Positions 10,801-18,300 of a stretch of 33,591 bases of DNA are shown piece after piece; position 1 is the first letter of the stretch; each line of letters starts with the position of its first letter. This stretch comes from an uncultured Bacilli bacterium (GTDB taxonomy: Bacteria > Bacillota_I > Bacilli_A > RF39 > UBA660), in NCBI GenBank assembly GCA_947624955.1, contig CANQMM010000012.1, positions 1 through 33,591 of the forward strand. Direction: 5' to 3'. The translations under genes were made by a program, and so were the position numbers. The notes under the pieces are model-generated. The model had not been told where the DNA came from, did no database searches, and saw only the letters and a list, made by a program, of their open reading frames with translations.

Positions 10801-10836
10801 AAACGTATCATTTTTCTCTAAGGGGGGGACATCTAT

Positions 10837-11565
10837 ATGTCAGATAAAGCAAAAAAAATAATTGTCAATATTTTAACCGGGTCACGTTTGTTAGCGGCTT
10901 TAGCTATCGCCCCAATTTATTTCTCTTTTGGTAGTATTGCGGCAGCCATAACAATTGGTGCTTCATTTTTAACCGATTTTATCGATGGCAAACTAGCTAG
11001 AGGATGGCACGTCGAATCATTTCTCGGTAGTTTATTAGATTCTGTTTCCGATAAAGCTCTAGCAGCTAGTTCTTTGATAACTTTAAGTCTCGTAAATCCC
11101 TTATTTCTTATTCCTTTATTATTAGAAGTCGGAATTTTAACAACGAATGTTATTGCTGCTAAATCTGGTGAAAATATTCAATCTAATATGTTAGGTAAAA
11201 TAAAAGAATGGTTTCTTGGTCTTGGTGCTGCTTCCGGTTTTGCCCTTACTGCTCCGAACATCGCCGAAAAATTAACGGAAACTACCCAAACAACTTATTT
11301 AAATACGGCGGCGTTAACTTCTGCTATTGCTTGCGGGGCGACGTTAGCTAGTTATTGTGCTTCCTACTATAGTGCTCACAAAGATCGTTTAGAATCTTTA
11401 CAAATCGAACAAAATCTTGCCGATATTAAGAGCCAAAAAGAAGCGCTTCGAAAATTAAAGACTAGACCGGAAATTCTTCACGATTTAATCGATACCGAAT
11501 TTTATCACACGCATAAAAATGATCCAATCTTATCTTTACTTTATAAAGAAAAACCTCAAAATTAA
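10837..11565 (+). CDS. CDP-alcohol phosphatidyltransferase (PgsA-like)
   Basis: Membrane enzyme that transfers a phosphatidyl group from CDP-diacylglycerol to an alcohol. The signature DxxDGxxARx8Gx3Dx3D is complete, from DFIDGKLARG to GSLLDSVSD (about residues 47-73). Several membrane segments follow, then a charged cytosolic tail of about 50 residues. At 242 residues it is longer than PgsA (about 190) because of that tail, so the alcohol acceptor (glycerol phosphate for phosphatidylglycerol, or another) is uncertain. It has its own promoter and a terminator over its stop codon. Confidence 0.85.
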   Translation: MSDKAKKIIVNILTGSRLLAALAIAPIYFSFGSIAAAITIGASFLTDFIDGKLARGWHVESFLGSLLDSVSDKALAASSLITLSLVNPLFLIPLLLEVGILTTNVIAAKSGENIQSNMLGKIKEWFLGLGAASGFALTAPNIAEKLTETTQTTYLNTAALTSAIACGATLASYCASYYSAHKDRLESLQIEQNLADIKSQKEALRKLKTRPEILHDLIDTEFYHTHKNDPILSLLYKEKPQN

Positions 11566-14477: not shown

Positions 14478-15632
14478 ATGAGTACAATGTATGTCGACAA
14501 TAAAGATGCTATAATTATGAAACTCGTTCACTACTTTATTACCGAAGAAAATTATGTTCCAATTATAGTAAATGGTGTTAAAGATGAAATCTGGTTAGAA
14601 AATGATGAAGGGCCTTATAAAATCGTCCGGATTAATTCTAATTATATTCATAATGCTGAACAATATCGTTTTGATATTTTTAAAACTAAAAACATCATGC
14701 GTCAAATAAAAAAGAAAACCCTATCATTGAGTATGAATGTCTTAAATATTCATTTAAACCTTAACGAAGGCGTTAATATGCAAGAAAGTAAAAATGTTGA
14801 AGCTATCAATTTAACTAATATGGAAGATATCAGTGAGAATAAAGGTTTAATGTCTATTTTCCCTAATATAAGTGAAAAATTAGTTAAAGATACAGATGGC
14901 TTAGATTTAATTATTCATATTACTAATGATATCAATAAAAAGACCGAAAGTGAAAACCGTAAATTAGAAGATACATTTAAACCTAAACCAATTATTATTA
15001 CTAAAATTTTAATTGCTATTAATGTCTTGATATATATCTATAGTATCTTCGGGGGATATAATCATATTATCAATTCTTATTCGGTTTCTGCATCTGCTAT
15101 TAGAGCTGGAGAGTATTATCGCTTAATTACAGGTACATTTTTACACGCCGGTATTTTCCATATTCTATTTAATATGTATGCTCTTTATGTTATTGGTAGC
15201 CAAGTAGAAACATACTTAGGAAAAACTAAATTTGCCATTATTTATACATTGAGCGCTCTAACCGGTAGTTTAATGTCGATGATATTCTCTTCTGCTCAAT
15301 CCGTTGGAGCAAGTGGAGCTATCTTCGGTTTATTAGGTTGTTTATTATATTTTGGTTACCATCATCGTCTATACTTAGGTAGCGTCTTACGTAATCAAAT
15401 TATTCCCGTTATTTTAATAAATTTAATTTTCGGCTTTGTCTCTTCAGCAGTTAATGATGCAGTTCATATCGACAATGCTGCCCATATTGGTGGTCTAGTT
15501 GGTGGTTTCTTTATCACGATGGCTTTAGGTGTCGCTAATAAAGACCAAAAAAGAGATCGATTAAATGGTTTGATAGTTACAACTATCTATGTAGCGTTCT
15601 TAATATATGCGGCTTTTATGCTTACTATTTAG
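14478..15632 (+). CDS. Rhomboid family intramembrane serine protease (GluP-like)
   Basis: Cleaves substrates inside the membrane. A cytosolic N-terminal domain of about 165 residues precedes the rhomboid core. The catalytic pair is Ser279 in GASGAIFGLLG and His336 in NAAHIGGLVGG. The oxyanion region is in HAGIFHILFNMYALYVIG. Six or seven membrane segments are expected. The long N-terminal domain resembles Bacillus GluP/YqgP, although no TPR tail is present. It has its own promoter and terminator. Its substrate is unknown; the next gene encodes an exported protein but is a separate unit. Confidence 0.9.
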   Translation: MSTMYVDNKDAIIMKLVHYFITEENYVPIIVNGVKDEIWLENDEGPYKIVRINSNYIHNAEQYRFDIFKTKNIMRQIKKKTLSLSMNVLNIHLNLNEGVNMQESKNVEAINLTNMEDISENKGLMSIFPNISEKLVKDTDGLDLIIHITNDINKKTESENRKLEDTFKPKPIIITKILIAINVLIYIYSIFGGYNHIINSYSVSASAIRAGEYYRLITGTFLHAGIFHILFNMYALYVIGSQVETYLGKTKFAIIYTLSALTGSLMSMIFSSAQSVGASGAIFGLLGCLLYFGYHHRLYLGSVLRNQIIPVILINLIFGFVSSAVNDAVHIDNAAHIGGLVGGFFITMALGVANKDQKRDRLNGLIVTTIYVAFLIYAAFMLTI

Positions 15633-15655
15633 CACTTCACAGTGCTTTTTCTTTT
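15631..15655 (+). terminator. Terminator of the rhomboid gene
   Basis: AGCACT-TCAC-AGTGCT (15631-15646) followed by TTTTCTTTT. It overlaps the stop codon. Confidence 0.8.
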
Positions 15656-15659
15656 GAAT

Positions 15660-15688
15660 TTGACAAATATGCGGGGGGGGGGTATCCT
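15660..15688 (+). promoter_or_regulatory. Phase-variable promoter with a G10 tract as spacer
   Basis: Consensus TTGACA (15660-15665) and TATCCT (15683-15688) are exactly 17 bases apart. Ten of those bases are an uninterrupted G run (15673-15682). Gain or loss of a G would change the spacer length and so the promoter strength. The predicted start is near 15695, 23 bases before the ATG. Confidence 0.75.
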
Positions 15689-15718
15689 AGTCATAGAAAG
15701 ATAAAGGTGACTAGGATA
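15683..15718 (+). repeat. 11-bp inverted repeat spanning -10 box to start codon
   Basis: TATCCTAGTCA (15683-15693) and TGACTAGGATA (15708-15718) are perfect inverse complements with a 14-base centre that holds the ribosome binding site AAAGG. The left arm is the -10 box and lies upstream of the predicted transcript start. The right arm reaches the first base of the ATG. Confidence 0.85.
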
Positions 15719-17268
15719 TGAATAAGAAAGTAGTAATATTAGGAATACTTGCAGTATGTTTATCAATATCTATAGGTATTGGTTTTTCTTATGCTGTTTG
15801 GACACAAACTGAAAAACAAAATGATATGAATGTTTTTGAGTCTGGTTGCTTTAAAATAGAAATAACTGAAGAAAAGGATATTATCGATTTATCAAATCAA
15901 TATCCTATTTTAGATGAAGGCGGGAAAAAACTAACTCCCTATACTTTTACCGTAAAAAATAATTGTAGCTTATATGCTAGTTATGCAGTTAATTTAGAAA
16001 AATTAGCAGGTTCAGATTTAGATAATCAATATATTAAAGTTATGCTAAATAACAAACGTCCACAATTATATAACTATTATAATATAACAACTAAGGAAGA
16101 TGATAGTTCAGTAGACTCTAGAACATTAACAACTGATGGATTAGGTGACGGAGAAACTAGAACATATACATTAAGAATATGGATAGATGAGAGTGGAACA
16201 AATGAAACAGTAGGAAATAAGAGATTTTCTTCTAAGATTGTTATTAAATCAGTAGCGACATATCAAAGTGGAGCAGAGTACATAGCAAGTTTATTAGAAA
16301 GTAATAAAGAAACAATGATTAATGACGACCCCGATGAAAATGTCAGATATATAGGAGCCACTCCAAACAATTACGTAACATTCAATGATGAACCTTGGCG
16401 GATAATTGGTGTCTTTGATATGTTTGAATGTGAGGATGATGCCACCGTTGAAACCTATACAACTAAATGTTCAACTAAAAAACTATTAAAACTAATCAGA
16501 AATGAGTCAATAGGAGAATACTCGTGGGACAGTAGTGATGTTTCAGTAAATGGCGGAAACGGAATAAATGAGTGGAGTACATCGGCGATTCAAGTAGCAT
16601 TAAATGGGGCATATTATAATAGTGAAAACGGAACTTGTTATGGAGGATACAATTTATTGCCAAAGAAATGTGACTTTACAGTAGAAAATCATAATTCTAC
16701 AAAAGGATTAGATGAAATAACAAGGACCCAAGTAGCAAAAGTTATATGGAATACCGGAACGATTAGCGGTATATGGGATGGCAATCAATCTAAATATACA
16801 GTACAAATATTTTATGAAGCAGAACGGAGCAACAACAGTGGTGAGTGGGCATGTAATAGTGGGACAACATATTGTAATGATAATCTTCCAAGAACAACAA
16901 AATGGATAGGAAAAGTAGGACTAATGTACCCAAGTGACTATGGATTAGCTACAGGATCAGGTAATTCAAAAGATAGAAACTCTTGTTTACAAAAAGCAAT
17001 ATTTACGTGGGCTGATTCAAGTTTTGCTGATTGTAAAGCAAATGATTGGTTGTTTAATAGTTCCGAACAATGGACAATGACCCCAGCAACTTATTCATCT
17101 CAAGCTACAGTTGTTTTTAGGGTACGCAATAACGGTATTATACACGATCATTCTGCAAATTTTGCATATGGTATTAGACCAGTAGTTTATTTAAAATCAG
17201 ATATTAAAATTATTCACGATGATGCTCATATTGGCAGTGTGGAACATCCCTATGAATTAACATTTTAA
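15718..17268 (+). CDS. Exported surface protein, TasA-like N-terminus and DUF6273-like C-terminus
   Basis: 516 residues. The N-terminal signal/anchor (about 5-27) ends in a SipW-type context (GIGFSYAVWTQTEKQNDMNVF). A beta-rich segment of about 140 residues follows, like TasA/camelysin-type fibre proteins (VKNNCSLYASYAVNLEKL, RTYTLRIWIDESGTN). The C-terminal 330 residues start with a VTFNDEPWRIIGVF motif. They end in WTMTP and GIRPVVYLKSDIKI, then SVEHPYELTF, the pattern I associate with DUF6273-type lectin-like domains common in gut Firmicutes surface proteins. Many cysteines suggest an extracellular location. Codons favour AGA, GGA and ATA more than the neighbouring genes, compatible with transfer. 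Family names are from pattern memory; the switchable promoter supports a surface role. Confidence 0.6.
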   Translation: MNKKVVILGILAVCLSISIGIGFSYAVWTQTEKQNDMNVFESGCFKIEITEEKDIIDLSNQYPILDEGGKKLTPYTFTVKNNCSLYASYAVNLEKLAGSDLDNQYIKVMLNNKRPQLYNYYNITTKEDDSSVDSRTLTTDGLGDGETRTYTLRIWIDESGTNETVGNKRFSSKIVIKSVATYQSGAEYIASLLESNKETMINDDPDENVRYIGATPNNYVTFNDEPWRIIGVFDMFECEDDATVETYTTKCSTKKLLKLIRNESIGEYSWDSSDVSVNGGNGINEWSTSAIQVALNGAYYNSENGTCYGGYNLLPKKCDFTVENHNSTKGLDEITRTQVAKVIWNTGTISGIWDGNQSKYTVQIFYEAERSNNSGEWACNSGTTYCNDNLPRTTKWIGKVGLMYPSDYGLATGSGNSKDRNSCLQKAIFTWADSSFADCKANDWLFNSSEQWTMTPATYSSQATVVFRVRNNGIIHDHSANFAYGIRPVVYLKSDIKIIHDDAHIGSVEHPYELTF

Positions 17269-17282
17269 CGAAAAGTATATGT

Positions 17283-17313
17283 AAATTTGACACGGAAATG
17301 TGTCAAATTTTTT
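17283..17313 (+). terminator. Terminator of the surface protein gene
   Basis: AAATTTGACAC (17283-17293), 6-base loop, GTGTCAAATTT (17300-17310), then T. Perfect 11-bp stem. Confidence 0.85.
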
Positions 17314-17341
17314 ATGCTTTTTCAGAAATTCACTTAGAAAA

Positions 17342-17385
17342 AAAGGAAATTGGTACCTCGACCGAGAATATATAAAGTGAAAGGG
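17342..17385 (+). repeat. Shared upstream motif, copy A (before the Rpn-like gene)
   Basis: Contains TTGGTACCTCGACCGAGAA (17350-17368), identical to 30694-30712. The flanks are also similar: AAAGGAA before it, and an ATATA tract, AGTGAA and a GGGA after it. It lies between a terminator and the start of an accessory gene in both places. Confidence 0.8.
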
Positions 17386-17418
17386 ATATATTTCTCTTTC
17401 TAGAAACGGAGGTGAAAT

Positions 17419-18300
17419 ATGTCTAAAAAAATTATACCTTTATGGCATGATGAAATATTTAATACTATCTTTAATAATGAAGATAATATCGATTTATTAG
17501 AAGAGTTGATTGCCATCTTGTTCCAAAGAGATATTAATGAGATTAGAGGTAAAGCTAAATTACTATCCCGTAATCTTTATCGCGTTAAAAGGGGCGATGC
17601 TAAAAAAGAAGTCGATATTTTAGTTGATGTTGATGGTGAAAAGTTTAACATCGAAATTGAAGATTGTTATGATGAAGCCACCTTAAAAAAAGATTACTCT
17701 TATGCTTGTAATATCCACTCTCGTCAAGCCAAAAGAGGAATCAAGAATTATAATACCATCAAAGCTACTAATCAGCTAATAGTATTTATCAAAGGATTAC
17801 ACCAAGGAACAGTATTAAGTAGATATCCCTTTAAGAATGAAAACTCTAAAGAGATATTAAGTGACTCAATGCGGATATATCTACTTGATGTGGAACAAGG
17901 AATGTGTTATGATAAAAATACCAATAAAATAATTCAGATATGCCACGCTTTAACAGCTGAAACAGAAGAAGAATTTAAAAGCGCAATGAAAGGAGTATTT
18001 AGTAATATGGAAAAAGATAAGAGATTAGTAGAAAGTGATTTAGCGATAAGTATGGATCCAGATGACTATAGTATGACATTTGATTTATCCCATGAAGAGT
18101 TATTAAGAAATACTATAGAAGATCGGGCTTTAAAAAAAGGCGAGACAATAGGTCTTAAAAAAGGCGAATCTATAGGTCTTAAAAAAGGTGCGGCTAGAAA
18201 ACAAGAAGAGATAGCTAGAGCCATGATCAAAGACAAAGTAGATAAGAATATCATCGCCAAGTACACCAAATTGCCTTTATCAAAAATTATGATGTTGTAA
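17419..18300 (+). CDS. Rpn-like / PD-(D/E)XK nuclease family protein
   Basis: 293 residues. The N-terminal nuclease core has the PD-(D/E)XK pattern in KEVDILVDVDGEKFNIEIE (about 72-90), followed by QAKRGIKNY. The C-terminal part has two to three near-identical 8-residue repeats (LKKGETIG, LKKGESIG, LKKGAARK) and a terminal helical segment, typical of recombination-promoting nuclease/transposase (Rpn) proteins. Family members promote recombination or act in phage defence. The ribosome binding site is GGAGG. The 24-base repeats (about 18129-18190) can expand or contract in frame. No terminal inverted repeats of an insertion sequence are seen. Confidence 0.8.
   Translation: MSKKIIPLWHDEIFNTIFNNEDNIDLLEELIAILFQRDINEIRGKAKLLSRNLYRVKRGDAKKEVDILVDVDGEKFNIEIEDCYDEATLKKDYSYACNIHSRQAKRGIKNYNTIKATNQLIVFIKGLHQGTVLSRYPFKNENSKEILSDSMRIYLLDVEQGMCYDKNTNKIIQICHALTAETEEEFKSAMKGVFSNMEKDKRLVESDLAISMDPDDYSMTFDLSHEELLRNTIEDRALKKGETIGLKKGESIGLKKGAARKQEEIARAMIKDKVDKNIIAKYTKLPLSKIMML

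Follow-up and report, generated by a model that had tools for sequence, protein, structure and literature searches.

The question raised by this locus is whether a run of ten G, lying between the -35 and -10 elements in front of a gene for a predicted exported protein, works as a switch of transcription. The window, i.e., the whole stretch of DNA that was analysed (33,591 nucleotides), comes from an assembly of an uncultured Bacilli bacterium (1.17 Mb, 65 contigs). The comparisons described below lead to the conclusion that the G tract very likely belongs to a phase-variable promoter cassette, which drives a gene from a multi-copy exported C-type lectin family and in which slippage would set transcription.

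In the interval 15660-15688, TTGACA is followed by AATATGC (7 nt), G10 and TATCCT; the ATG stands about 30 nt beyond the end of the -10 (Table 1). The sequence-only reading had placed TTGACA and TATCCT 17 bases apart, ten of these being G, and its coordinates are exact. It had also spoken of a consensus promoter: the term is generous for the -10, in which only four bases out of six agree (10/12 overall). In related genera, TATAAT, TATACT or TATGAT is found at the -10 position. The transcription start, placed by its distance from the -10, is predicted at about 15695. The promoter directly follows the intrinsic terminator of a rhomboid-protease gene (ORF 14478-15632), thus the gene behind the G tract needs a promoter of its own; the terminator scan gave 2 terminators vs. 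0.5 expected in shuffles. Scanning the region for the promoter consensus gave 8 sites vs. 10.6 expected in shuffles. The TTGACA/TATCCT promoter is one of the two best sites, and the sole coding-strand site with 10/12 matches. The consensus used is not rare in AT-rich DNA, and the scan is by itself weak evidence for a promoter.

The G10 tract is very far from a chance run: base composition predicts about 8e-4 runs of ten or more G for this strand of the window and about 0.13 for both strands of the whole genome. The G10 tract is the only run of at least eight G in the window, and the earlier statement that no other promoter of the window has a similar run holds. The single G7 of the window (10822-10828) is located just 5' of the ATG at 10837, i.e., at a Shine-Dalgarno position and not in a promoter spacer.

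Table 1. Features of the G-tract locus, in positions of the window
Feature	Position	Strand	Remark
Intrinsic terminator of the upstream rhomboid-protease gene	15631..15646	+	-6.4 kcal/mol, z -2.3
-35 element TTGACA	15660..15665	+	identical in every genomic cassette copy
Promoter spacer	15666-15682	+	17 nt
G10 tract within the spacer	15673..15682	+	9-14 G in other fully resolved copies
-10 element TATCCT	15683..15688	+	4/6 match to consensus
Inverted repeat, left arm, 11 bp, TATCCTAGTCA	15683..15693	+	overlaps the -10; upstream of the predicted start (~15695)
Shine-Dalgarno-like AAAGGTGA	15703..15710	+	read from the sequence
Inverted repeat, right arm, 11 bp, TGACTAGGATA	15708..15718	+	ends at the first base of the ATG
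ATG of the G-tract gene	15718	+	start of 15718..17268
Exported protein, 516 aa (predicted): N-terminal signal/TM helix, beta-rich domain, C-terminal DUF6273-type C-type lectin domain	15718..17268	+	prediction
C-terminal C-type-lectin-like domain, residues 188-516	16279..17265	+	AlphaFold2 mean pLDDT 85
Variable-region-like segment of the gene	17083..17181	+	2/15 identity at template Asn codons, 12/18 elsewhere
Intrinsic terminator of the G-tract gene	17283..17310	+	terminator scan
PD-(D/E)XK (Rpn-like) nuclease gene, 3' of the G-tract gene	17419..18300	+	absent in sister species

The cassette (TTGACAAATATGC-Gn-TATCCTAGTCATAGAAAGATATAGGTGACTAGGATATG) is not confined to the window: at least 11 copies, that of the window included, are present in the genome. 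Nine G runs of at least 9 are found genome-wide and all of them (9/9) fall within the cassette. In a tenth copy, on contig C35, the tract is interrupted (G5AG7), and contig C46 ends five G into the tract of an eleventh; besides the resolved tracts, the tally contains one interrupted copy and two copies cut off at contig ends. The resolved tracts have 9, 9, 10, 11, 11, 13, 14 and 14 G, i.e., spacers of 16-21 bp, these lengths being taken from the assembly of one genome and short-read assemblies being able to misjudge long G runs. The flanks differ by about 2.7 of 47 bases per pair of cassettes (0.056 per site), yet 32 of the 36 pairs have tracts of unequal length. The copies on C41 and C42 have identical flanks (43/43 bases) with 9 vs. 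11 G. Such a spread of lengths among near-identical cassettes, seen here among paralogous copies, is the one that a hypermutable tract would predict.

All seven assembled genes behind a cassette code for one exported protein family. On C42 and C56, the cassette (G11 in both) stops immediately short of the ATG; on C49 (with a variable region of the TR1 type, see below) and C22, the gene starts immediately beyond it. Judging from these contig ends, these two cassettes probably join these two genes. A decayed cassette with a broken G tract (GTAGGAGA; L056 3640-3700, contig C19) is located in a tandem pair of genes, in front of the second one. Other members of the lectin family (L058, L059 and L063; contigs C33, C45 and C51) are driven by another promoter region that they share, which is devoid of G tract and contains repeated ATTGTAC/GTACAAT motifs.

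The pattern TTGACA-N(0-25)-G8+-N(0-12)-TATAAT was searched in 386 genomes of the same GTDB family. It is present in 65 genomes and in 45 of 150 genera, and the reversed-pattern control gives 0 matches in the same 386 genomes; 100/386 genomes match a looser pattern. Outside the family, elsewhere in the phylum, the figure is 14/373. By these sequence counts, the poly-G promoter is enriched in the family and not exclusive to it.

Spacing was analysed on the 115 distinct sites listed. The G run adjoins the -35 in some genera and the -10 in others, and the lengths of the non-G segments on the left and on the right compensate each other (r = -0.89). The SD of the total spacing is 1.96; shuffling of one side raises it to 5.4, and not one of 10,000 shuffles reached so low a value (p < 1e-4). 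The total spacing is comprised between 16 and 20 bp in 83% of the sites, with a mode of 19 and not 17. Since the non-G lengths compensate and the total spacing is conserved, the G runs occupy real promoter spacers. It also follows from a mode of 18-19 that the G10 of the window (17 bp) is not necessarily the state of highest activity. The view of G10 as the optimum, i.e., as fully ON, is doubtful, as related genomes centre on 18-19 bp; the strongest state is predicted to be G11-G12 (spacer of 18-19 bp).

The copies of some related genera (G120, G360) are nearly fixed at G9. Comparison of the same locus across species, restricted to three upstream-orthologous pairs, gives 9/9, 9/9 and 12/10 G. 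A looser scan of public genomes detects similar promoters in Clostridia, Treponema, Streptococcus and others; many of them precede exported proteins (64 of 97 downstream products have a hydrophobic N-terminal segment). In Streptococcus sp. 68 and S. thalassemiae, TTGACAAGTATTTAC-G9-TATACT promoters are located before exported proteins (L150 5482-5511, L159). The cassette was not found in the viral contigs searched.

The second element of the cassette is the inverted repeat. Its left arm starts with the -10 and ends before the expected transcription start, thus the RNA made from the promoter is devoid of this arm. Folding of the window cassette RNA gives -15.7 kcal/mol with the left arm vs. -0.2 without it; for the five cassettes of this genome that were examined, the values are -9.0 to -15.7 and 0 to -0.6, respectively. 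Arms of at least 8 are found in this position in 10 of 143 distinct poly-G cassettes vs. 1.1 expected (6 without the related copies of this genome), and C22 has matching changes in both arms. RNA reading through from upstream would contain both arms, whose pairing would enclose the ribosome site and block translation; only promoter-initiated RNA would be translated, the left arm being absent from it. As judged from the folding model, the repeat could in this way prevent the translation of read-through RNA. Similar hairpins are used against read-through by the transposase genes of insertion sequences. The alternative is that the repeat is the binding site of a regulator.

In that case, switching would depend chiefly on a putative regulator bound to the repeat over the -10, with a geometry altered by the G tract, and not on the -35/-10 distance as such. 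NadR, a repressor combined with a repeat tract at meningococcal nadA, is a precedent (PMC2791445): both systems have a repeat tract and a symmetric element near the promoter. The perfect repeat of the window extends from the -10 to the ATG, and the matched changes of C22 would fit an operator. However, the operators of nadA flank the repeat tract and the spacing between them matters, whereas here the repeat overlaps the -10 and the start codon; most poly-G promoters of related genera have no such repeat and their spacing is still conserved; and the arms are placed no less suitably for an RNA lock than for an operator. The intervention of a regulator is therefore considered unlikely. It could also be proposed that the G run is a fixed structural spacer (e.g., A-like DNA or a former of strand structures), needed at a set length for promoter function and without any switching. 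The almost invariable G9 of some related genera and the conservation of the total spacing agree with this proposal, but the near-identical cassettes of this genome carry 9, 10, 11, 13 and 14 G, and a spacer range of 16-21 bp is too broad for it; there is little probability that it is correct. Lastly, poly-G miscalls are a known artefact of short reads (PMC9187656), which might have created or stretched the runs in an assembly of 65 contigs having several cassettes at contig ends. This origin is highly improbable: both flanks are intact and conserved, the runs are confined to the cassette, the architecture recurs in many independent assemblies and the reversed-pattern control is zero.

The phase-variable promoter of an exported protein, as proposed by the sequence-only reading, is thus the explanation retained; sequence comparison supports it both by the near-identical copies with differing tracts and by the total spacing conserved family-wide. 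Slippage of the G tract would change the distance between the -35 and the -10 and would decide for each lectin gene if it is transcribed and to what level; it would act independently at each of the copies (at least 11). From these comparisons we infer slippage in living populations, graded or on/off expression and surface display.

The gene product had also been described as exported and multi-domain, which agrees with the predicted succession of an N-terminal signal/TM helix, a beta-rich domain and a C-terminal lectin domain; copy number, retroelement link, lectin fold and hairpin had been missed. The model of the C-terminal domain aligns with the N-terminal (DUF6273) part of the Thomasclavelia ramosa IgA peptidase 9qa6 (Z 16.3, rmsd 3.5, 216 residues; VIA-align), DUF6273 being the annotation of that part of the peptidase (PMC12402451). 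The next structural matches are C-type lectins, with Z 4-6, a range also reachable by a common arrangement. Against viral DUF6273 models, E values go down to 2.7e-7. DUF6273 domains are C-type-lectin-like and bear retroelement variable regions in gut phages (PMC11792537, PMC10743442). As modelled, the C-terminal domain of the window protein has a DUF6273-type C-type lectin fold. The curated DUF6273 profile (Pfam PF19789) is not reached by the window protein (14.4 bits vs. a cut-off of 23.5) and matches 1 of 17 family members (E 8.6e-4). The full-length structure is of low confidence (pLDDT 66) and has no significant fold match; plain Foldseek of the C-terminal domain vs. PDB gave nothing significant; the profile search of solved sequences with the window protein found none; Rfam gave no match over 15400-17500; and one distant relative only of the protein was found in the viral contigs searched.

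The genome holds 27 matching pieces of this lectin family. In a sister species, the G-tract gene and the nuclease gene that follows are both missing between the same neighbours; the two genes are therefore an accessory insert. The nuclease genes of the window (17419-18300) and of L055 (5767-6666) have KKGETIGLKKGES-type repeats, the close paralog being located beside the retroelement of contig C40.

This retroelement comprises a reverse transcriptase of the type found in diversity-generating retroelements (DGR) (RVT_1 3.3e-17, phrog_1423 3.7e-70), an Avd protein (phrog_3206 1.5e-14; 5.8e-11 with the NCBIfam Avd model, which is below the curated cut-off of that model) and, beside both, a template repeat (TR1). 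In ten paralogs, the 3' end matches this template; 17-24 of 34 A are changed and, for the other bases, mostly 1-5 of 24-26 each; in one drifted paralog, 11/26 C are changed. A second template (TR2) adjoins the gene of C35, i.e., the one behind the interrupted (G5AG7) cassette, with 17/29 A changed and 0/70 other bases. At the genome level, template repeats are accompanied by substitutions restricted to adenine in the variable regions, and this pattern designates many of the lectin paralogs as targets of a DGR, which would rewrite the binding face of these sister genes. An ORF with weak similarity to MutS domain I (E 8e-6; L055 8189-8674, C40) is located between TR1 and Avd. Just past TR2, where a reverse transcriptase might be expected, there is an ORF resembling, by eye, an IS200-type transposase (L060 5888-6400, C35).

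The gene of the window was considered as a current DGR target and rejected. Its differences from TR1 (A 18/32, C 11/23, G 13/23, T 4/21) have no adenine-only pattern, and no template repeat specific to it was found in the genome. At the amino-acid level, its segment 17083-17181 has the pattern of a variable region, but drift at silent sites and the loss of the match to a template make this region an old variant; the lectin face that the gene displays is most likely fixed. Across the 386 genomes, Avd is found in 51/100 genomes with poly-G promoters vs. 105/286 without (odds ratio 1.8, p 0.013, relatedness being ignored). The link between the two traits across the family is weak, and their coupling rests on this one genome. 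A literature search (open-licence papers) found no paper combining retroelements with phase-variable promoters.

A two-layer system can be put forward tentatively, its chances being somewhat below even: poly-G promoters would choose among about 20 or more displayed lectin paralogs, the retroelement would rewrite the binding face of many of them, and the hairpin at the start site would silence the "off" genes against read-through RNA.

The promoter type is a known switch in a new setting. In meningococcal porA, passing from 11G to 10G and 9G gives 2- and 13-fold lower surface expression (PMC3639595). The locus shares with porA a G tract between the -35 and -10 of a surface-protein promoter, lengths of about 9-11, a length that varies between near-identical copies (here paralogous ones) and an expected graded expression. 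However, porA is a single gene of a Gram-negative pathogen, whereas the Bacilli cassette has at least 11 copies, its tracts reach 14 G and an inverted repeat is present in addition at the ribosome site. Bordetella phage Mtd, the Faecalibacterium phage and the tentaclin DUF6273 targets have in common with the sister genes a reverse transcriptase, Avd, template repeats and adenine-specific variable regions in C-type-lectin domains. In contrast to known DGRs, many cellular targets are found here for one reverse transcriptase, some of them behind poly-G promoters, and the window gene has a variable region that has lost its match to a template. Bifidobacterium breve is likewise a gut commensal using G-tract slippage for surface structures (pili), but its tracts are inside the coding sequence (frameshift switch) and not in the promoter spacer.

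The best-known cases of switching by a poly-G spacer are those of Neisseria, in which it drives immune escape. In the uncultured Bacilli lineage studied here, the poly-G spacer takes the form of a repeated cassette, which is common in the GTDB family of this lineage and is placed on a lectin family also mutated by a retroelement. The bacterium probably varies both which lectins are shown and what they bind. If expression follows tract length, one small genome would combine combinatorial display and targeted hypermutation. Phage evasion, competition and host binding by such lineages thereby become open to test, and metagenomes can be searched for switchable surface proteins by means of a simple sequence signature.
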